The notes beneath the pieces were generated by a model. The model had not been told where the DNA came from. It made no database searches and saw only the letters and a program-made list of their open reading frames with translations. From assembly GCA_017615835.1 (NCBI GenBank), contig JAFZZI010000007.1, positions 1 through 64,000 on the forward strand: a DNA stretch of 64,000 bases. The letters are read 5' to 3'. A program made the translations under genes and the position numbers. Shown here one piece after another: positions 7,308-23,439 of the stretch (position 1 is the stretch's first letter; every line of letters begins with the position of its first letter). Origin of the DNA: Bacteroidaceae bacterium (GTDB lineage Bacteria > Bacteroidota > Bacteroidia > Bacteroidales > Bacteroidaceae).

Positions 7308-8894
7308 TCACTTCGTTTCCAACTCCTCTTCGTTAAGTGACGAGGATGCCCTTACCGTGACAGTACGGTTATAGCACGAGAACATTCCTTCAATGCCAGA
7401 CTTGTCGTGAACAGAACTGAAAGCACTGACAAGCGGAACGATAACAAGGCCCAGCAGCATCGCAAGCACACCGGCGTTTATAGGTGATGTAAAGTACGGC
7501 GAAATGAAAGTCTTACCTGTGAAGGTGCAGTACATGCAGCCGCACATGACTGCAATACCCGAAAAGAAACTTGCCCACACAGAGGCACGGGTTGCCTTTT
7601 TCCAATAGAGTCCGTACAGGAAAGGCGCCAGGAAAGCACCGGCCAATGCACCCCACGAAATACCCATGAGCTGGGCGATGAATGTGACTGAACTCTTGGC
7701 CTGGACTATGGCCAGAACCGATGATACAATGATAAAGAAAAGCACGAAAATCCTTATCCAGAGCAGCTGCCTCTTCTCAGTCATTGCCGAACCCTTGCGA
7801 GAGACTGCAGGTGAGATTATGTCGAGTGTGAGTGTCGATCCTGACGTGAGCACCAGTGAGGACAGAGTTGACATAGAGGCCGAGAGTACGAGTATTATAA
7901 CGACACCGATGATGATGTCGGGTAGCGAAGACAGCATTGACGGAATGATGCTGTCGAATATCGGGGTACCCTTGTCTGTATAGTCAATGAGTCCCGAGTA
8001 GAGTCGGCCGAATCCGCCCAGGAAGTAACAGCCGCCTGCGACAATGAGGGCGAAGAAGGTCGAGATTGCGGTACCCTTGCGAATGGCGTTTTCGTCCCGG
8101 ATGGCATAGAACTTACCTACCATCTGCGGGAGCCCCCATGTACCGAGAGATGTAAGAAGCACTACTCCTAACAGTTGCAGGGGTTGGGGGCCGAAGAACG
8201 AGACAAAGGCTCCGTTGAGTTCGGGAGCAGCCTCGGAAGGCAACTGGGATAGTTTGTTGACTGCCTGAGTAAAGCCTCCGTTGCCATTGAGTACGGCCAT
8301 TACGACGGCACAGATGCCCACCAGCATGATGAGACCCTGGATGAAGTCGTTTACGGCTGTGGCCATATAGCCGCCTACAAGTACGTATATGCCAGTAAGG
8401 ACAGCCATCGCGATGACGCACCAGGCATAGTCAATGCCGAAAGCCATTCCAAAAAGCCGGGACAGACCGTTATAGAGGGATGCGGTGTAGGGTATGAGGA
8501 AGACGAACACTATCACAGATGCGGCCACCTTGAGGGCGGTTGAGCCAAAACGCTGTCCGAAGAAATCGGGCATTGTGGCACTGTGAAGGTATTGGGTCAT
8601 CAGCCTTGTACGGCGACCGAGTATGCGCCAGGCAAGCAGTGAACCGATAAGGGCGTTTCCAAGACCTATCCATGTGGAGGAAAGGCCGAACCTCCAGCCG
8701 AACTGACCGGCATAGCCGACGAATATTACGGCCGAAAAATAAGATGTACCGAATGCGAATGCGGTAAGCCACGAGCCGACATTGCGGCTGCCAAGCACAA
8801 AACCCTGTACGTTCGCAGCTGTTTTGCGGCAATAGATGCCGACACCGACCATTACGGCAAAAAAGAGTACCAGAAGGATGATTTTCAAGAACAT
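7308..8894 (-). CDS. Sodium:solute symporter (SSS family)
   Basis: A 528-residue integral membrane protein with about thirteen predicted helices, of the PutP/PanF/SGLT-like family that drives uptake with the sodium gradient. Family hallmarks include the early FVLGSRNVGSWLTAFAFGTSYFSA stretch (helix 1-2, sodium site region), then ALIGSLLAWRILGRR and LSASMSTLSSLVLTSGSTLTLDI (helix 8 region, with the Ser/Thr pair usual for sodium ligands). The C-terminal tail (after about residue 490) is hydrophilic. It lies between the ACT/paaK genes (54 bp) and the RND pump (15 bp), in the same direction. Substrate is not readable from sequence; a carboxylate or amino acid is typical, and proximity to arylacetate genes is only suggestive. 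Confidence 0.88.
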   Translation of the reverse strand: MFLKIILLVLFFAVMVGVGIYCRKTAANVQGFVLGSRNVGSWLTAFAFGTSYFSAVIFVGYAGQFGWRFGLSSTWIGLGNALIGSLLAWRILGRRTRLMTQYLHSATMPDFFGQRFGSTALKVAASVIVFVFLIPYTASLYNGLSRLFGMAFGIDYAWCVIAMAVLTGIYVLVGGYMATAVNDFIQGLIMLVGICAVVMAVLNGNGGFTQAVNKLSQLPSEAAPELNGAFVSFFGPQPLQLLGVVLLTSLGTWGLPQMVGKFYAIRDENAIRKGTAISTFFALIVAGGCYFLGGFGRLYSGLIDYTDKGTPIFDSIIPSMLSSLPDIIIGVVIILVLSASMSTLSSLVLTSGSTLTLDIISPAVSRKGSAMTEKRQLLWIRIFVLFFIIVSSVLAIVQAKSSVTFIAQLMGISWGALAGAFLAPFLYGLYWKKATRASVWASFFSGIAVMCGCMYCTFTGKTFISPYFTSPINAGVLAMLLGLVIVPLVSAFSSVHDKSGIEGMFSCYNRTVTVRASSSLNEEELETK

Positions 8895-8948: not shown

Positions 8949-9365
8949 CTACTCCCAACCCTGTATGAGTTGGAATCCCTGAGCGGATGCCACAAGTTCA
9001 GCCTTCTCCATATCGGCAGGGCGTACAATCAGCACCAGACGTCCGTCTTTTGAGAAGGTGTAAAGGTAGTTGATTACCACACCGTTGTCTGTAAGACTGG
9101 ATATGGTTGCCGAAAAGGCTGCCACGTTGTCTTCTATGGAGATGGCCAGCACTTCGTTGACATTGACCAGTACACCTATGTCAGAGAGAAGGGCGGCTGC
9201 CTTGGTCTGGTTTGAGGTGATGAGTCGGAGTATGCCATAGTCATTGGTATCGGCAACTGAGGCTGCCTGTATCTCTATGTTCTGGTCGCTAAGTGCACTA
9301 AGAATCCTCTTCAGGCTGCCCTGACGGTTCTCCAGGAAAATTGAAAGCTGCTTTATAGTCTTCAT
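8949..9365 (-). CDS. Tandem ACT-domain protein, likely aromatic amino acid sensor
   Basis: A 138-residue soluble protein made of two ACT domains: residues 3-68 (TIKQLSIFLENRQGSLKRIL, the typical strand-loop-helix with the ligand-loop Gly) and about 70-136 (LAISIEDNVAAFSATISSLTDNGVVINYLYTF). It has no catalytic domain. Stand-alone double-ACT proteins of this kind are often encoded beside phenylacetate-CoA ligase in anaerobes and are thought to bind amino acids. The gene begins 13 bp after the paaK stop, so the two are an operon, and it would fall under the same leader attenuator. Regulation of the ligase or of the pathway by an aromatic amino acid is an inference. Confidence 0.88.
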   Translation of the reverse strand: MKTIKQLSIFLENRQGSLKRILSALSDQNIEIQAASVADTNDYGILRLITSNQTKAAALLSDIGVLVNVNEVLAISIEDNVAAFSATISSLTDNGVVINYLYTFSKDGRLVLIVRPADMEKAELVASAQGFQLIQGWE

Positions 9366-9378
9366 ATTAGGATTGGAT

Positions 9379-10680
9379 TTAGTGGTTCTGTCTTAAATCT
9401 TTGACTCTCACGGCTTTGCCGTCACTCTGCGGGATGACGCCCTTACCTACAAGCTGCACCTTCGGGGTCAGCAGTATCTCGTCTTTGAGGCGGCGGGCTA
9501 TTTCGCGGCGCAGATTGTCAAGTAACTGGAAGTCATCCGTGGCTTTTGCCAACTCTACCTGGACGGTCATCTCGTCGTTGTCACCTACTGTCTCAAGGGT
9601 AATAAGGAAATCACTGGCCAGTTCGGGGAACTGCATCAGTATTTTCTCTATCTGAATCGGGAATATGTTGACTCCCTTGACTATCATCATGTCGTCACTG
9701 CGGCCCTGGAAACGCTGTAAGCGACGGTGAGTTCTGCCACAGGGGCATTCACCGGGAAGGATACGGGTAAGGTCGCGAGTCCGATAGCGGAACAGAGGCA
9801 TGGCCTCACGGTTGAGTGTTGTCAGGACAAGTTCACCCAATTCACCTTCAGGTACGGGTTCAAGGGTTACGGGATCAAGTATCTCTACGATGTAGTTGTC
9901 CTCCCAAATGTGCATTCCGTTCTGCTCCTGACACTCGATGGCCACACCGGGACCACACATTTCGCTCATGCCGAAGTTGTTGTAGGCCTTGCATCCCCAC
10001 AGTTCTTCAATACGCTGACGCTGGGCTTCAGAATGGGGCTCGGCCCCGATAATCATTATACGGACAGTTGTATCGCGCGGATCAACACCCTGCTCCTTGA
10101 AGACAGCAGCCAAACGGGTGGCGTAGCTGGGTATGCAATGAAGAGCAGTGGTTCCGAAGTCTTGTATGAACTTGAACTGACGGAGACTGTTTCCGGCGGC
10201 AGCGGGGACAGTCATTGCCCCGAGACGCTCGGCGGCATACTGAATGCCGAGACCTCCAGTGAACATTCCGTAACCGGAGGTATTCTGGATAATGTCGGTG
10301 TCCCTCAAACCTGTTGCATACATGCTGCGAGCCATGGCATCGGCCCACTCATCAATGTCCCTGCGTGTATGGAGGATGACCGTGGGGTTTCCGGTCGTAC
10401 CGCTTGACGAGTGAAGGCGTATGACCTTCTGAAGCGGAACAGAGGCTATGCCGAAGGGATATGTCGAACGGAGGTCGTTCTTGGTTGTAAAAGGAAAACG
10501 CTTGATGTCTTCGACACTGTTTATGCTTTCGGGGGTGATGCCTCGCTCCCTGAATATGGGGGCATAGAATTTTGAACCCATTGCTATTTCCACCGTCTTT
10601 CTGAGACGTTCCACCTGAAGTTTTTCCAGTTGCCTGCGCGGCATGGTTTCAATCTCCTCTTCCCAATACTTTCTTTCCAT
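9379..10680 (-). CDS. paaK: Phenylacetate/arylacetate-CoA ligase
   Basis: An adenylate-forming ligase of 433 residues that activates an arylacetate with ATP and CoA to aryl-acetyl-CoA in the cytosol. The ATP-binding loop is LHSSSGTTGNPTVILHTRRD. The usual PaaK segments YGMFTGGLGIQYAAERLGA, NNFGMSEMCGPGVAIEC and RFQGRSDDMMIVKGVNIFP (hinge to the C-terminal lid) are all present. In obligate anaerobes that lack the aerobic paa catabolic genes, this enzyme commonly serves reductive synthesis of aromatic amino acids with IorAB, whose genes lie 9 kb away. I chose ATG 10680 (MERKYWEEEI, the usual family start). An in-frame ATG at 10713 sits directly against the T-run of a terminator hairpin and has no room for a ribosome site. 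Substrate (phenyl-, hydroxyphenyl- or indole-acetate) is unresolved. Confidence 0.93.
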   Translation of the reverse strand: MERKYWEEEIETMPRRQLEKLQVERLRKTVEIAMGSKFYAPIFRERGITPESINSVEDIKRFPFTTKNDLRSTYPFGIASVPLQKVIRLHSSSGTTGNPTVILHTRRDIDEWADAMARSMYATGLRDTDIIQNTSGYGMFTGGLGIQYAAERLGAMTVPAAAGNSLRQFKFIQDFGTTALHCIPSYATRLAAVFKEQGVDPRDTTVRIMIIGAEPHSEAQRQRIEELWGCKAYNNFGMSEMCGPGVAIECQEQNGMHIWEDNYIVEILDPVTLEPVPEGELGELVLTTLNREAMPLFRYRTRDLTRILPGECPCGRTHRRLQRFQGRSDDMMIVKGVNIFPIQIEKILMQFPELASDFLITLETVGDNDEMTVQVELAKATDDFQLLDNLRREIARRLKDEILLTPKVQLVGKGVIPQSDGKAVRVKDLRQNH

Positions 10681-10715
10681 TGTCAAACGTATATTTTTAT
10701 CATTTTCTTGCATAG

Positions 10716-10745
10716 AAAAAGGCCTGTTTCCGTGTGGAACAGGCC
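10716..10745 (-). terminator. Terminator hairpin just upstream of paaK (attenuator terminator)
   Basis: On the minus strand GGCCTGTTCC, loop ACAC, GGAAACAGGCC form a GC-rich hairpin (10745-10721; 8 bp, one bulged A, 2 bp), followed at once by TTTTT (10720-10716). It sits between the leader peptide and the paaK start, downstream of the operon promoter. That is the position of an attenuator, not of a terminator for the TolC gene 165 bp upstream. Confidence 0.8.
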
Positions 10746-10790
10746 CTGGTGATCTATCAAAACAACTTCACACCCAACCGCTCCACACAG
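10730..10790 (-). promoter_or_regulatory. Candidate antiterminator pairing
   Basis: RNA CTGTGTGGA (10790-10782), immediately after the leader stop codon, can pair over 9 bp (one G-U) with TCCACACGG (10738-10730). The latter forms the loop and inner stem of the terminator hairpin. The same CTGTGTGGA can instead fold back on CTCACA at the end of the leader reading frame. These are the two exclusive states expected of ribosome-mediated attenuation. The pairing was found by eye, without energy calculation. Confidence 0.55.
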
Positions 10791-10838
10791 TCATGTGAGG
10801 CTGCAATAGCTGTATGCGGTGTATCCGTTGCCTTTCAT
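10791..10838 (-). CDS. Tyrosine-containing leader peptide (15 aa) upstream of paaK
   Basis: ATG at 10838 opens a 15-codon frame, MKGNGYTAYSYCSLT, with three Tyr codons (positions 6, 9 and 11) and no Phe or Trp. It starts about 15 nt into the predicted transcript (-7 box 10867-10860) and stops just before RNA segments that can fold as antiterminator or terminator. A short tyrosine-biased frame, two alternative stems and a T-run hairpin right before an aromatic-amino-acid gene match the classical trp/phe/his leader design. I infer that slow decoding of Tyr codons lets RNA polymerase enter paaK. There is no family support, since the frame is too short for homology. Confidence 0.6.
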   Translation of the reverse strand: MKGNGYTAYSYCSLT

Positions 10839-10859
10839 TTCACTCGTTTAACTGAACTG

Positions 10860-10887
10860 CAAATATACATTCAATTATTCATTCCAA
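10860..10887 (-). promoter_or_regulatory. Promoter of the paaK-ACT operon
   Basis: TATATTTG on the minus strand (10867-10860) is an exact TAnnTTTG -7 box. Around 10885-10887 a TTG (within TTGTTGG) serves as a weak -33 element. Transcription would start near 10853, about 15 nt before the leader-peptide ATG, leaving a leader of about 170 nt before paaK. Confidence 0.6.
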
Positions 10888-10907
10888 CAATGATTTGACG
10901 GAAAAAG

Positions 10908-12224
10908 TCAGAAAGAGAGATCTTTTCCCCTGTAGAAATCAAGAATCTTGGTCTGGTATAGAAAATCGTATCTTGCCTGGGCAAGATTGGAGGCTGCTTC
11001 AATCCAACGGCCTTTCGACTGATTGTAGTCGGTTATGTCTGCCTTGCCCTCCTCGTATTTGGCCTCCATTATGTCAAAGGCTTCGCGGGCACTTGCCTCG
11101 GCAGCTGTACTGCTTACATACTTGGATTCCGAAGCTACGGCATTGTAGTAAGCCTGCTGAATCTCTTTATAAAGTGATTTGCGGGCATTCTCAAGCTGCA
11201 ACTGCTGGTTCATGTAGGATATCTGGGCAGAACGCACTCCGTTGCGGGTGGAAAGGCGGTTGTAGATGGGAATCCTGAGCGACAGGCCGATTGATTGTCC
11301 GAAGTTGTTCTTGAGCTGACTCCCGAAAGAATCGGAGGAGCGGCTTGAGGTAGTATAGTAGTTGGTGCTCAAGCCCGCGCTAAGTGAAAGGCTTGGGTAA
11401 TAGTTGCTCTTGGCAATGCTTATATTTCTCTCGGCTGAATTGAGACGTATCTCTTCAGAACGGATGGCAGGCTTGACGGCTACTGCTTCGGCGTATATGT
11501 CTTCGGGATTACCCAACAATCCCGTACGGAAAGCATCAACATCGGGGACCTCTATGTCGAATCCTTCAGGAGAGGCCAGTTCAAGAAGTTGTGTCAGGTC
11601 GAGCAATGCAAGATTCAGATTGTTGCGGGCCTGGGTGCAGGAAAGCCTGCTCTGGGCCAGAGAAGCCTTCTGAGCGGACAGTTCAGCCAGACTGGCCTTG
11701 CCGTTCTGTACCATCAGAGTGATGCGTTCTACCTGAACGGAATCTATGGAGACCTGGTTGCGGGCAACTTGCAGTATCTCCTTGTTGAAGAGTATCTGGA
11801 CGAATGACTTGGCAACTGCCACACGGATGTCGTCGCGGGCTTTTTCAAGATCTGCAGTGGCGGCCTCAAGGTTCAGGCGGCTGACCTCGATGCCGTTTCT
11901 TATGGAAAAGCCCTGGAACAGTGTCATGTCCGCACCGACGCTGAACGATGTGTTGGTGGTGTTGGTATTGTCGTAGGTGTTCTGAGCGGTAAGTCCCCTG
12001 CCGAACGAAAAGTTCTGCGAGGCTCCTGCCGAGACACCCGGCATACGACGGGCCTTTGATGTGCTGAGTTCATTCTCTTGCTGCTGTACAGTGAGTTGGC
12101 TGCGGCGGACCGACAGGTTATTCTCAATGGCATAGTTGATACAGTCAGACAGGGACCATTGCTTCTGGGCCGTCGCCGTCATTATGATGAACAGCACAGC
12201 CGGTAATGTTATCAGTTTCTTCAT
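10908..12224 (-). CDS. TolC-family outer membrane protein of the ABC export operon
   Basis: A 438-residue outer-membrane channel. Residues 1-20 (MKKLITLPAVLFIIMTATAQ) are a signal peptide, which fixes the start at 12224; an in-frame ATG 15 bp further up lies inside the previous gene. Two OEP repeats follow, each with long Ala/Gln/Glu-rich helices (first WSLSDCINYAIENNLSVRRSQL; second starting near YAEAVAVKPAIRSEEIRL). It is last in the seven-gene operon beginning at 17790, so it probably forms the exit duct for the MacAB-like transporter. It is separate from the RND pump at 1.8-7.3 kb, which has its own TolC-like gene. Confidence 0.92.
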   Translation of the reverse strand: MKKLITLPAVLFIIMTATAQKQWSLSDCINYAIENNLSVRRSQLTVQQQENELSTSKARRMPGVSAGASQNFSFGRGLTAQNTYDNTNTTNTSFSVGADMTLFQGFSIRNGIEVSRLNLEAATADLEKARDDIRVAVAKSFVQILFNKEILQVARNQVSIDSVQVERITLMVQNGKASLAELSAQKASLAQSRLSCTQARNNLNLALLDLTQLLELASPEGFDIEVPDVDAFRTGLLGNPEDIYAEAVAVKPAIRSEEIRLNSAERNISIAKSNYYPSLSLSAGLSTNYYTTSSRSSDSFGSQLKNNFGQSIGLSLRIPIYNRLSTRNGVRSAQISYMNQQLQLENARKSLYKEIQQAYYNAVASESKYVSSTAAEASAREAFDIMEAKYEEGKADITDYNQSKGRWIEAASNLAQARYDFLYQTKILDFYRGKDLSF

Positions 12225-19930: not shown

Positions 19931-21535
19931 ATGGAGAAAAGACTTTTACTGGGCGATGAGGCTATTGCCCAAGGTGCCATTGATGCGGGTCTGAGCGGAG
20001 TATACGCCTACCCGGGAACACCGTCGACGGAAATAACTGAGTATATACAGGCTTACTGCAGAAAGACTGGCGCGGGAATTCACAATCGCTGGTGTACAAA
20101 CGAAAAGACTGCAATGGAAACAGCACTGGGCATGTCTTTCGCAGGGAAGAGAGCCTTGGTCTGCATGAAGCATGTGGGAATGAACGTTGCAGCAGACCCG
20201 TTCGTCAACTCATCCATCACGGGTGTTAACGGAGGTCTGGTTGTTTTGGTTGCAGATGACCCGTCAATGCATTCCTCACAAGATGAGCAGGACACCCGCC
20301 ACTACGGCAAGTTCGCAATGATACCTATTCTGGAACCCTCTACACAACAGGAGTGCTATGACATGATGGCTTATGCCTACAGCATGTCCGAGGCTCTGAA
20401 ATTACCGGTCCTGATGCGCACGGTAACACGTCTGGCCCACTCGCGCTCGGTAGTGGTATTGAGGGCAAAACGCGAAGAGAACCCGTTGGAACCTGTGAAC
20501 GGCTCAAGAGACTGGGTTCTTTTACCAGCTATAGCAAGACGCCGCTATGCCGGCCTGCTGACAAAACAGGCTGAGATTGCCAAACTGGCGCTTGAATCTC
20601 CATTTAACTCCTTCAAAGCTGAGGCCAAGCGCTATGAGATGGGTGCCATTGCCTGTGGAAATGCTTATAACTATCTGTCCGAGTGCTATCCCGATGGTAT
20701 TCCGTTCCCGGTTCTGAAACTATCACAGTACCCGATACCGCAGGAGACTGTCAGAACAATGGCAGAACAGTGCGAGTCAATAATGGTTATCGAGGATGGG
20801 CAGCCTTTCGTCGAGGAACAGATTGCCGGCATCCTGACTTCTGAATGCCGCATTATAGGGAGACTGACCGGCGAACTGCCCCGTCAAGGAGAACTGAACC
20901 CAGACATAGTAAAGGTAGCCTTAGGACTGCAAGCCATGCCTCACTCAGACGTAGCAGAGAACGTTGTAGCACGTCCCCCTGCACTATGTCAGGGTTGCGG
21001 GCACAGAAGCGTCTACGAAGCAATCAACATAGTACTCAAGGACTATAAGAACGCCAAGGTATTCGGAGACATAGGCTGTTACACGTTGGGGGCACTGCCT
21101 CCATACCAGGCCCTTGACAGCACCGTTGACATGGGTGCGTCCATTACTATGGCCAAGGGGGCTTCCGATGCAGGTGTTTTTCCTGCAATAGCGATAATCG
21201 GGGACAGCACGTTCACTCACTCGGGCATGACCGGACTGCTGGATGCCGTCAATGAAAACGCCCCGATCACCATTATCATCTCCGACAACCTGACGACTGG
21301 CATGACAGGGGGACAAGACTCTGCAGGTACCAACAAATATGAAGCCATCTGCCGAGGTATAGGAGTCGATCCCGAGCATCTGAAGGTGGTGGTTCCACTG
21401 CCACAGAACATGGAAGAGATTACCCGAATCTTGCGCGAGGAGATAGAATACCACGGCCTGTCTGTGGTGATTCCACGTCGCGAATGCATACAGACACTTG
21501 CCCGTAAGGCAAAAGCTAAAGCACAGAAACAATGA
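19931..21535 (+). CDS. iorA: Indolepyruvate:ferredoxin oxidoreductase, alpha subunit
   Basis: A 534-residue TPP-dependent subunit. The N-terminal pyrimidine-binding domain has AYPGTPSTEITEYI; the C-terminal TPP/PP domain has PALCQGCGHRSVYEAI, FGDIGCYTLG and IIGDSTFTHSG, followed by ISDNLTTGMTGGQ. The enzyme interconverts arylpyruvate and aryl-acetyl-CoA with ferredoxin. With reduced ferredoxin in anaerobes it can run as a CO2-fixing synthase. The frame ends soon after the TPP domain; the C-terminal cysteine-rich 2[4Fe-4S] domain of archaeal IorA (CxxCxxCxxxC) is absent. Electrons must therefore come through another protein or cluster. The start overlaps nothing, and the stop overlaps iorB by 4 bp. 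Confidence 0.94.
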   Translation: MEKRLLLGDEAIAQGAIDAGLSGVYAYPGTPSTEITEYIQAYCRKTGAGIHNRWCTNEKTAMETALGMSFAGKRALVCMKHVGMNVAADPFVNSSITGVNGGLVVLVADDPSMHSSQDEQDTRHYGKFAMIPILEPSTQQECYDMMAYAYSMSEALKLPVLMRTVTRLAHSRSVVVLRAKREENPLEPVNGSRDWVLLPAIARRRYAGLLTKQAEIAKLALESPFNSFKAEAKRYEMGAIACGNAYNYLSECYPDGIPFPVLKLSQYPIPQETVRTMAEQCESIMVIEDGQPFVEEQIAGILTSECRIIGRLTGELPRQGELNPDIVKVALGLQAMPHSDVAENVVARPPALCQGCGHRSVYEAINIVLKDYKNAKVFGDIGCYTLGALPPYQALDSTVDMGASITMAKGASDAGVFPAIAIIGDSTFTHSGMTGLLDAVNENAPITIIISDNLTTGMTGGQDSAGTNKYEAICRGIGVDPEHLKVVVPLPQNMEEITRILREEIEYHGLSVVIPRRECIQTLARKAKAKAQKQ

Positions 21536-22104
21536 AGACAGATATAATTCTTGCAGGCGTGGGAGGTCAAGGTATCCTCTCAATAGCCACCGTAATCGGT
21601 CAGGCCGCACTCGAAGAGGGTCTATTCATTAAACAGGCCGAGGTACATGGAATGAGCCAGCGCGGCGGCGACGTCCAGTCTAACTTGCGCATATCTGACC
21701 AGCCCATCGCCAGTGATCTGATATCACTTGGACAGGCAGACATCATCATCGCTATGGAACCGATGGAGGCGCTACGTTACAAGGAGTACCTGAGTACCGA
21801 CGGATGGGTGATAACATCATCAAACCCATTTGTCAACATTCCGAACTATCCTGACAGCAACAAGATCTTGGATGAACTGCGCGGAATGCCGCATCTTGTT
21901 CTTATTGACACAGACAGGATTGGTGCAGAGAACAAGATGACCAAATCAGTTAATATGATACTTCTGGGAGCAGCATCCCGTGCGCTGAAAAGCATCAGTT
22001 TTGAGAAATTATGCGACAGCGTAGCCACTATATTCGGAAGCAAGGGAGAATCGGTAGTGGAGATGAATGTCAAAGCCCTTAAGATAGGACTTAACTGCAA
22101 ATAA
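21532..22104 (+). CDS. iorB: Indolepyruvate:ferredoxin oxidoreductase, beta (gamma-domain) subunit
   Basis: A 190-residue partner of IorA. The N-terminus DIILAGVGGQGILSIATVIG is the characteristic glycine-rich motif of the POR gamma domain, and AEVHGMSQRGGDVQSNLRI is the other family hallmark. The gene begins within the iorA stop (ATGA overlap), so the two are translationally coupled. It lies 9 bp before the aminotransferase gene, which supports one transcript for arylpyruvate formation and amination. Confidence 0.94.
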   Translation: MKTDIILAGVGGQGILSIATVIGQAALEEGLFIKQAEVHGMSQRGGDVQSNLRISDQPIASDLISLGQADIIIAMEPMEALRYKEYLSTDGWVITSSNPFVNIPNYPDSNKILDELRGMPHLVLIDTDRIGAENKMTKSVNMILLGAASRALKSISFEKLCDSVATIFGSKGESVVEMNVKALKIGLNCK

Positions 22105-22113
22105 ATGCCATAG

Positions 22114-23439
22114 ATGAAAACGGTCATTCCACAACAAGTCATTGACAATTATCTGAAAAAGATAGAGGTGACAGACCTCAACAAGGCATCTATCAGACAA
22201 GTTCTTGCTACGGTAAAAAATGCCGAGAAACTGACAGGGACAGAGTTCATCCACTTTGAGATGGGAGTTCCGGGCATTCCTCCATCAGCATATGGAGTAA
22301 AGGCACAGAAAGAGGCTCTGGACCGTGGAGTAGCATCTAAATATCCAGATATTGAGGGAATACCTGAACTGAAGGAACAGGCATCACGCTTTGTAAAGGC
22401 CTTCCTCAACACCGATATAAGCGCTGCCCATTGCACCCCGACCTGCGGTGCAATGCAGGGAACTTTCGCAGCATTTCTTCTCTGCTCGCAACTCGATCCG
22501 AAGAAGGACACTATCCTTTACATCGATCCCGGATTCCCTGTTCAGAAAATGCAGGCTAAAGTCATGGGGGTGAAGATGGAGTCATTCGATGTAGCAGACT
22601 ACCGTTCAGATAAGTTGGCTCCCAAACTCGAAAGCTATCTGAAGAAGGGCAATATTTGCTGCATCGTATATTCTAACCCCAACAATCCCAGTTGGATGTG
22701 TCTGACTGAAGAAGAGATACGAACGATAGGCCAACTTGCGACCCAATATGACACTGTCATTCTTGAGGACCTCGCATACATGACTATGGACTTCCGCCGG
22801 GATGGACTGGGAGTTCCATACCAGCCGCCATACCAGACTACAGTGTCACACTACACCGACAATGTGATAATGATGCTTAGCGGTTCGAAAATTTTCAGTT
22901 ATGCCGGTGAGCGTATTGCAGTGGCATGTATATCTGATAAACTTTATGAACGGAGTTATGAGACCCTCGCACAAAGATACGGGATATCGCGATTTGGCTC
23001 CGTATATGCCTACGATATGTTGTATGCCATGTCATCAGGGGTCACCCACTCTGTTCAATGTGCTATGGCTGCCATGATGAAAGCAGCTGTTGACGGGGAA
23101 TACCAATTCCGCGAGGACATACGCGAATATGCCCGCCGCACGGAAAAGATAAAGGAATCACTGCTGAGAAACGGCTTCAATATAACTTACGACAAGGATC
23201 TTGAACAGCTTGTCAGCGATGGTTTCTTTTTCACGTTCGGGTACAATTTGCCTGATGGAACACCCATGGAGGGCGGTAAACTCTTGCATGAATTACTGTG
23301 GTTTGGCATTAGCGGAATCACACTGCTGTCAACCGGCAGCACTCGCCAAGGCTTGCGTGGCTGCTCTTCAAACATAAGGGAAGACCAGTTCCCGGTTTTG
23401 GAAGAACGCCTAAGACTCTTCAACGAGGCACACAGATAA
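22114..23439 (+). CDS. PLP-dependent class I/II aminotransferase, probably aromatic
   Basis: A 441-residue fold-type I aminotransferase. The cofactor Lys259 lies in MLSGSKIFSYAGERIA; also present are NPNNPSW (residues 189-195), Asp219 in LEDLAY and the carboxylate-binding Arg in STGSTRQGLRG. The family is the aspartate/aromatic aminotransferase superfamily. Specificity cannot be read directly, but third place in an iorA-iorB operon suggests it aminates the arylpyruvates made by IorAB (or supplies them, if the pathway runs in the degradative direction). It is followed by a perfect palindrome and a convergent gene. Confidence 0.88.
   Translation: MKTVIPQQVIDNYLKKIEVTDLNKASIRQVLATVKNAEKLTGTEFIHFEMGVPGIPPSAYGVKAQKEALDRGVASKYPDIEGIPELKEQASRFVKAFLNTDISAAHCTPTCGAMQGTFAAFLLCSQLDPKKDTILYIDPGFPVQKMQAKVMGVKMESFDVADYRSDKLAPKLESYLKKGNICCIVYSNPNNPSWMCLTEEEIRTIGQLATQYDTVILEDLAYMTMDFRRDGLGVPYQPPYQTTVSHYTDNVIMMLSGSKIFSYAGERIAVACISDKLYERSYETLAQRYGISRFGSVYAYDMLYAMSSGVTHSVQCAMAAMMKAAVDGEYQFREDIREYARRTEKIKESLLRNGFNITYDKDLEQLVSDGFFFTFGYNLPDGTPMEGGKLLHELLWFGISGITLLSTGSTRQGLRGCSSNIREDQFPVLEERLRLFNEAHR

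Follow-up and report, generated by a model that had tools for sequence, protein, structure and literature searches.

The 64,000-nucleotide stretch analysed here, hereafter the window, comes from a Bacteroidaceae bacterium (assembly GCA_017615835.1, contig JAFZZI010000007.1). On its minus strand it carries a paaK-like gene followed by two further genes, and on its plus strand a second group of three:

9379..10680, minus strand, paaK-like arylacetate-CoA ligase, first gene of the predicted controlled set (Pfam PF14535, PF00501)
8949..9365, minus strand, ACT-domain pair protein (Pfam PF19571)
7308..8894, minus strand, SSF sodium:solute symporter (Pfam PF00474)
19931..21535, plus strand, IorA-like subunit, separate from paaK here and below the NCBIfam equivalog cut-off
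21532..22104, plus strand, IorB (NF005324, above cut-off)
22114..23439, plus strand, class I/II aminotransferase (PF00155)

A preliminary description had read the ligase gene as part of an operon, and comparison bears this out. The genes for PaaK, the ACT protein and the symporter adjoin one another in 33 of the 34 genus-like loci (locus L070 ends before the symporter gene), and iorA is next downstream in 17 of the 34 within the fetched stretch, where other stretches may end before iorA. In the window, the iorA-iorB-aminotransferase group lies 9 kb from the paaK operon on the opposite strand, and no leader was seen before the window iorA. The PaaK protein is homologous to the phenylacetate--CoA ligase equivalog TIGR02155 and scores 459.1 bits against a cut-off of 646.3, and the IorA-like protein scores 526 bits against 651; thus, the substrates are not fixed by the family match. 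Rumen bacteria carboxylate phenylacetate to phenylalanine. The substrate may be 4-hydroxyphenylacetate, in preference to phenylacetate or indoleacetate, the pathway may run towards synthesis, and the gene set probably rebuilds tyrosine from scavenged arylacetic acids. Elsewhere in the same genome (L159:3788-6868), a second paaK homologue (45% identical) stands beside two genes, one for an ACT protein and one of 454 residues that by eye is tryptophan synthase beta-like.

Upstream of paaK, the minus strand shows the following features:

10888..10890, minus strand, -33 element TTG, 20 nt upstream of the -7 box (sequence)
10860..10867, minus strand, -7 box TATATTTG, of the form TAnnTTTG (sequence)
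10791..10838, minus strand, leader peptide frame of 15 codons, MKGNGYTAYSYCSLT up to the stop codon, located where relatives have their Tyr-run leaders
10821..10823, minus strand, Tyr codon 6 (TAC), from the sequence of the leader frame
10812..10814, minus strand, Tyr codon 9 (TAC), from the sequence of the leader frame
10806..10808, minus strand, Tyr codon 11 (TAT), the modelled stall site (sequence, fold)
10818..10823, minus strand, segment 1, UACACC within the frame, with its partner GGUGUG at 10774-10769 (anti-antiterminator; folds, and 1:2 pairing in relatives)
10776..10790, minus strand, segment 2, CUGUGUGGAGCGGUU, 5' arm of the antiterminator, immediately 3' of the stop codon (folds, helix search)
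10732..10747, minus strand, segment 3, 5' arm and loop of the terminator, pairing with segment 2 (folds, helix search)
10716..10747, minus strand, intrinsic terminator hairpin and U-run (UUUUU at 10720-10716; fold, covariation in relatives)

The preliminary description had proposed here the complete layout of ribosome-mediated attenuation, and all its parts are found at their places and conserved in relatives. The exact -7 box (10867-10860) is present. TAnnTTTG occurs 5' of 20 of the 22 leaders examined, and 19 of the 22 have a TTG at a spacing of 19-21 nt; we take this pair to be the Bacteroidetes-type promoter consensus (-33/-7). The frame at 10838-10791 holds three Tyr codons among its 15, at positions 6, 9 and 11, and neither Phe nor Trp, as had been described. 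The segment after the stop codon, CUGUGUGGA (10790-10782), is indeed complementary to UCCACACGG in the hairpin. The helix is longer than first noted, since the ungapped pairing of segments 2 and 3 reaches 13 pairs, CUGUGUGGAGCGG with CUGUUCCACACGG (G-U counted), and it therefore occupies part of the terminator 5' arm as well as the loop. The GC-rich hairpin with its TTTTT run also stands, with a folding energy of -17.9 kcal/mol for 10747-10719 (z -4.5). One correction concerns the in-frame ATG noted just behind the hairpin, at 10713, which is probably not the start of paaK. Most genus relatives align from the ATG at 10680, and this start leaves 35 nt between the U-run and the start codon. A simple promoter/terminator scanner does not report the window hairpin, which RNA folding detects clearly; we think that the scanner misses it because the unbulged loop exceeds 8 nt. 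When 10680-10867 was shuffled with dinucleotides preserved (n=5000), a Tyr-rich short frame appeared in 11 shuffles, a terminator in 16 and both in none.

Comparison of paaK upstream regions across Bacteroidales, which the preliminary description had proposed, recovers a conserved Tyr-enriched frame together with terminator and antiterminator in the leader-bearing relatives. Of 55 Bacteroidales loci, 14 have a Tyr-run frame 5' of paaK, usually YYYYYRT before the stop codon. Among the loci compared, the sequence shown for L039 precedes a duplicated paaK fragment, with the full gene 192 nt further on (L039:3001-3193 is a duplicated paaK 5' end upstream of the intact gene), and the upstream sequence comprises only 52 nt in L077 and 345 nt in L033; L062, which nearly duplicates L053, was kept out of the alignments. 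In the genus of the window, leader, antiterminator segment and terminator precede the same paaK in 16 of 37 genomes, the window included (for example MKFNVTSYYYYYYRT). This count comes from covariance model R1 and comprises matches directly upstream of paaK with E up to 5.1e-7; from contig and position, 13 of the 16 were judged to be R1 training sequences and G020 a near copy, and only G008 and G012, with the leaders MNLQHTYGYYCYYYYRT and MRSQQTYSYYCYCYYRT, are new. All 37 genomes have a close paaK match, 36 at 80-100% identity and G014 at 65% at a contig end. R1 finds no match at paaK in the remaining 21, G014 among them, so that the control is dispensable. One of these relatives is Candidatus Colenecus caballi (Bacteroidaceae), and the others are metagenome-assembled genomes, many from horse faeces or ruminants. 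In a paaK tree of 39 rows, 15 of them with a leader (L126 and L128 not included), leader-bearing rows occur in every early branch of the genus, and at least four state changes are needed (0 of 500 shuffles as low). The simple reading is that the leader is ancestral and may have been lost in part of the rumen group, with repeated gain as the alternative.

Similar leaders are found before stand-alone SSF genes in five genomes of two other genera (L143-L147; for example MFNISKKYYYYYYYRTLTVGL). These symporters are 75-80% identical to the product of the third gene of the operon, and the paaK genes of the five genomes are on other contigs. In one of the two genera, 7 of 17 genomes match, three with an SSF leader and the rest with pheA leaders or none (L213). 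The Tyr leader seems from its distribution to go with function, not with one position. Directly 3' of one such leader-bearing SSF gene, L160:3406-4479 encodes a 357-residue protein that has no Pfam match (E up to 1e-5) and is perhaps an outer-membrane partner.

Counted over the 21 aligned Tyr leaders (16 before paaK, five before SSF), Tyr codons number 126, Phe codons 14 and Trp codons 3. Each leader has a six-codon run preceding the Arg codon (Pro in L147); with the window set aside, the runs of the other 20 leaders comprise 120 codons, of which 108 encode Tyr, and so the lack of Tyr enrichment or frame conservation that would have spoken against an attenuator was not encountered. Pairwise differences amount to 0.08, 0.135 and 0.30 at codon positions 1, 2 and 3; this concentration of changes at third positions indicates selection on the encoded tyrosines. 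Between promoter and terminator there is thus a short frame that is enriched in codons of one amino acid and conserved as codons.

The pairings were compared over the same leaders. In the terminator alignment, 92.9% of cells are paired and 7 of 8 pairs have changed on both sides, a count reached by none of 500 shuffles; fold and covariation together show that an intrinsic terminator precedes the first structural gene. For the 1:2 helix, 65.9% of cells are paired in a sequence-driven alignment and the covariation score is matched by 7 of 500 shuffles, with pairs changed on both sides not above shuffles (330 of 500). In a partner-swap test on the best helix per leader, none of 10000 permutations over the 21 leaders is as good as the leaders' own partners; in several rows, including the window, L055, L128 and L145, this best helix is not at the homologous place. 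For the 2:3 antiterminator, 85.9% of cells are paired, four pairs have changed on both sides, a count that 12 of 500 shuffles reach, and 106 of 10000 partner permutations over the 21 leaders are as good. Its paired cells and pair types are not above shuffles (64 and 305 of 500), because the helix is nearly invariant. The window pairs GUGUGGA with UCCACAC where most relatives pair GUGGGGC with GCCCCAC. Its segment 2 scores 30 against its own segment 3, 28 and 25 against those of L033 and L034, the two nearest relatives, and 11 to 18 against the 18 others, and the window therefore adds little independent compensation. Thus, folds and partner swaps support an antiterminator incompatible with the terminator and a 1:2 helix incompatible with the antiterminator, while the alignment covariation of these two helices is weaker and partly not above shuffles. 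Sequence comparison shows the leader and its enrichment in Tyr codons, together with the terminator and the two predicted competing pairings.

Folded in both states, as had also been proposed, the window leader switches in the model between antiterminator and terminator. With the ribosomal A site on Tyr codon 11, the antiterminator forms at -27.5 kcal/mol and no terminator is present, whereas a ribosome at the stop codon lets the terminator form. For a transcript ending before the terminator 3' arm, the energies are -22.9 (stalled at Tyr codon 11) and -8.3 kcal/mol (stop codon). This difference holds for a ribosome leading edge of 11 to 14 nt (-22.9 versus -8.3 to -8.1) and is smaller at 9 nt (-22.9 versus -16.0). 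In the fold model, a ribosome on the control codons frees segment 2 and one on the stop codon covers it. Across 21 leaders, truncated transcripts form the 2:3 antiterminator in 20, the exception, L143, being an artefact of a longer frame. The truncated antiterminator lies below the terminator in energy in 17 of the 21, equals it in one and lies above it in three. In equilibrium folds of the complete stalled transcript, the probability of the terminator falls below 0.5 in only 8 of 21 leaders and is 0.53 in the window. Since equilibrium folds mostly keep the terminator, kinetic trapping or folding order must be assumed in most leaders; in textbook attenuators it is the order of folding that decides.

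We suggest the following mechanism. The ribosome would trail RNA polymerase across the leader. With ample charged tRNA-Tyr, it would reach the stop codon and mask segment 2, and the terminator would form before paaK. When charged tRNA-Tyr is scarce, the ribosome would stall on a Tyr codon and mask segment 1, segment 2 would take segment 3, and this pairing would block the terminator, so that paaK, the ACT gene and the symporter gene would be transcribed. Without translation, segment 1 would sequester segment 2, and the terminator would again form. The operon would then supply tyrosine by uptake and activation of arylacetate, followed by conversion to the amino acid by IorAB and the aminotransferase. 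From codons, pairings and folds together, we consider it very likely that the leader is a ribosome-mediated transcription attenuator of paaK-ACT-SSF that senses charged tRNA-Tyr; how the cell responds to tyrosine and what the operon does in metabolism are inferred.

None of the 21 leaders has so few Tyr codons as the window copy itself (three, versus 4 to 7 in the other 20), which on this count may be less sensitive or decaying. It could be a relic, in which case the attenuators of the relatives would work and the hairpin here would have become a constitutive partial terminator after loss of tyrosines. The three Tyr codons are indeed non-contiguous, and Ala, Ser and Cys replace Tyr residues of the relatives. 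However, the frame is intact, the terminator, the 1:2 pairing, the 13-pair 2:3 helix and the promoter are retained, and a Cys within the run is also seen in relatives L126 and L128. We therefore regard a relic as unlikely and favor a functional attenuator in the window as well.

Two further readings fare far worse. The hairpin could terminate a TolC-like gene that ends at 10908 on the same strand, with the short frame arising by chance, but this is barely credible, because frame and terminator coincide in 0 of 5000 shuffles, the leader accompanies paaK in many relatives and stand-alone SSF genes elsewhere, a promoter-like -33/-7 pair lies between the TolC-like gene and the frame, and among 14 leader-bearing paaK relatives a TolC-like gene is upstream only in L034 (the sequence available before paaK in L033 spans just 345 nt). 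A metabolite-binding riboswitch or T-box sharing the same terminator would also fit a terminator-bearing leader before an amino-acid-related operon, but we give it next to no weight, since no Rfam family exceeds its gathering score in the window except tRNA elsewhere, 20 related loci yield at E up to 0.5 only Thr_leader, itself a leader-peptide family, on L118, and what is conserved is the codons and competing helices, with little between them. On the shuffles, the Rfam scans and the leaders of relatives, both readings and chance were rejected. The L118 match pairs a Tyr leader with Thr_leader on the leader's own strand and reaches 30 bits, where the gathering score of the family is 55.

Other aromatic leaders are found around this one. 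In the window assembly, an aroF-tyrA operon (Pfam) carries the mixed Phe/Tyr leader MTAEVLYFDFYYFTRP, and a second class of R1 matches consists, in 15 of 15 inspected genus loci, of leaders like MKAINAYFYYFWFTRQYAG before aroF (Pfam of one). The nearly Tyr-only leaders of paaK and SSF differ from these and from the mixed Phe/Tyr leaders of pheA. An aromatic leader MKAINAYFYYFWFTRQYAG with terminator before aroF (DAHP synthase) was noted in the genus of the window at L129-L142, L157 and L165. Phe/Tyr-rich leaders with terminator precede prephenate dehydratase (pheA, by eye) in Bacteroidales, many of them Bacteroidaceae (L148-L156, L158, L171, L179, L181, L209-L212); six of these loci were scanned and gave no Rfam family at E up to 0.5. 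In several Bacteroidales families, Phe/Tyr(/Trp) leaders such as MSKDINNHVAYYYWYYYGNQTG stand before aminotransferases (by eye; L172-L175).

In a distant genus, a leader with YYYYPI precedes a biopterin-dependent aromatic amino acid hydroxylase (PF00351) in all three genomes that have the enzyme, of five searched. The leaders are MKNLNNTYYYYPILTRRIGQ, MNFTTTLYYYYPILILRVGT and MNFTTAIYYYYPILSLRVES (L233, L234 and L235, with frames from 1336, 1366 and 1359; terminator by eye). The enzyme is probably phenylalanine 4-hydroxylase, and a Tyr leader on a tyrosine-making hydroxylase points the same way as those of paaK and SSF.

Searches over wider groups set limits on these patterns. The exact five-Tyr pattern gave 13 matches in 399 family genomes, 11 of them leaders (L184 and L196 look unrelated), and the reversed control pattern gave 9, so that the pattern alone is hardly above control. 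The Tyr model R2 matched 14 of 393 genomes across the order, window included. Its 13 non-window matches contain no further paaK leader; nine are mixed Phe/Tyr or Tyr plus Trp leaders, with pheA, tyrA or aminotransferase genes by eye or no gene assigned (L180), and four (L176, L177, L182, L183) show no convincing aromatic leader. Across the phylum R2 matched 20 of 395 genomes, and the 19 non-window matches are mostly Thr/Ile or Ile/Val leaders, with Tyr runs in L217 and L224 and unconvincing matches in L228 and L231. R2 thus partly detects leader attenuators generally, and its matches outside the family are therefore not evidence for the paaK leader. Leaders in other Bacteroidota at L214-L216, L218-L221 and L230 resemble the E. 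coli thr leader, being Thr/Ile-rich (MTINNTTIITIITTGKYFGGK) and followed by a terminator and an aspartokinase-like gene (by eye). Ile/Val-rich frames with terminator precede branched-chain aminotransferase-like or regulatory-subunit-like genes (by eye) at L222, L225-L227, L229 and L232.

Among known systems, the Thr, His, Leu and Trp leaders of Rfam belong to the same mechanism class and serve other amino acids; none of these families, nor Bacteroid-trp, matches at gathering score in the window and 20 loci. The Bacteroid-trp RNA is linked by name to tryptophan genes, and the E. coli pheA and pheST attenuators combine alternative hairpins with a terminator. Bacteroid-trp (RF01692; Weinberg et al. 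2010) is a candidate cis-regulatory RNA in Bacteroidetes and was not reported by cmscan in the window or the 20 loci. In E. coli pheA (pheL) and pheST, an aromatic-rich leader peptide governs supply or use of the same amino acid (PMC11802643). These systems use Phe codons on biosynthesis and tRNA-synthetase genes in another phylum, whereas the paaK leader uses Tyr codons on an arylacetate salvage operon; we liken the two by layout, not by sequence. Corynebacterium glutamicum aroR places a Phe-Tyr-Phe leader with ribosome stalling before aroF (Neshat et al. 2014, via PMC11802643). It shares an aromatic leader and stalling with the paaK leader but responds to Phe limitation, with no Tyr effect (PMC11802643). 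The uORFC-13-1 motif of Acholeplasma, a predicted uORF with Phe codon(s) and a terminator before aroF (PMC8632094), differs from the paaK leader in amino acid, phylum and target. The same source cites an earlier hypothesis of attenuation at E. coli aroF. The amino acids with known leader-peptide attenuators are Trp, His, Thr, Leu, Ile/Val and Phe (PMC3766115), and for tyrosine T-boxes are named as regulators (PMC1262725). As of 2010, until PMC2965389 added a case from Firmicutes, descriptions of leader peptides came only from Proteobacteria and Actinobacteria, and in Bacteroides and Flavobacterium leader attenuation has been suspected without details. The excerpted open-access literature gave us neither a leader peptide that responds to tyrosine nor one placed before an arylacetate operon. 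The kind of attenuator is thus known, while tyrosine as the amino acid and a salvage operon as the target look new.

A Tyr-only leader would fill a gap among amino-acid leader attenuators. Its target suggests that paaK-ACT-SSF(-iorAB) of these gut Bacteroidales makes or imports tyrosine and does not degrade it, and gives the uncharacterised SSF symporter a candidate substrate class. We lean, with some reservation, towards a tyrosine-specific attenuation regulon of Bacteroidota for tyrosine of non-shikimate origin, which would comprise paaK-ACT-SSF-iorAB for the activation and reductive carboxylation of arylacetates, the lone SSF of other genera and the phenylalanine 4-hydroxylase of a single distant genus within the class. 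If this is true, the cell separates tyrosine shortage from a general shortage of aromatic amino acids, the latter being reported to aroF and pheA by mixed Phe/Tyr/Trp leaders.
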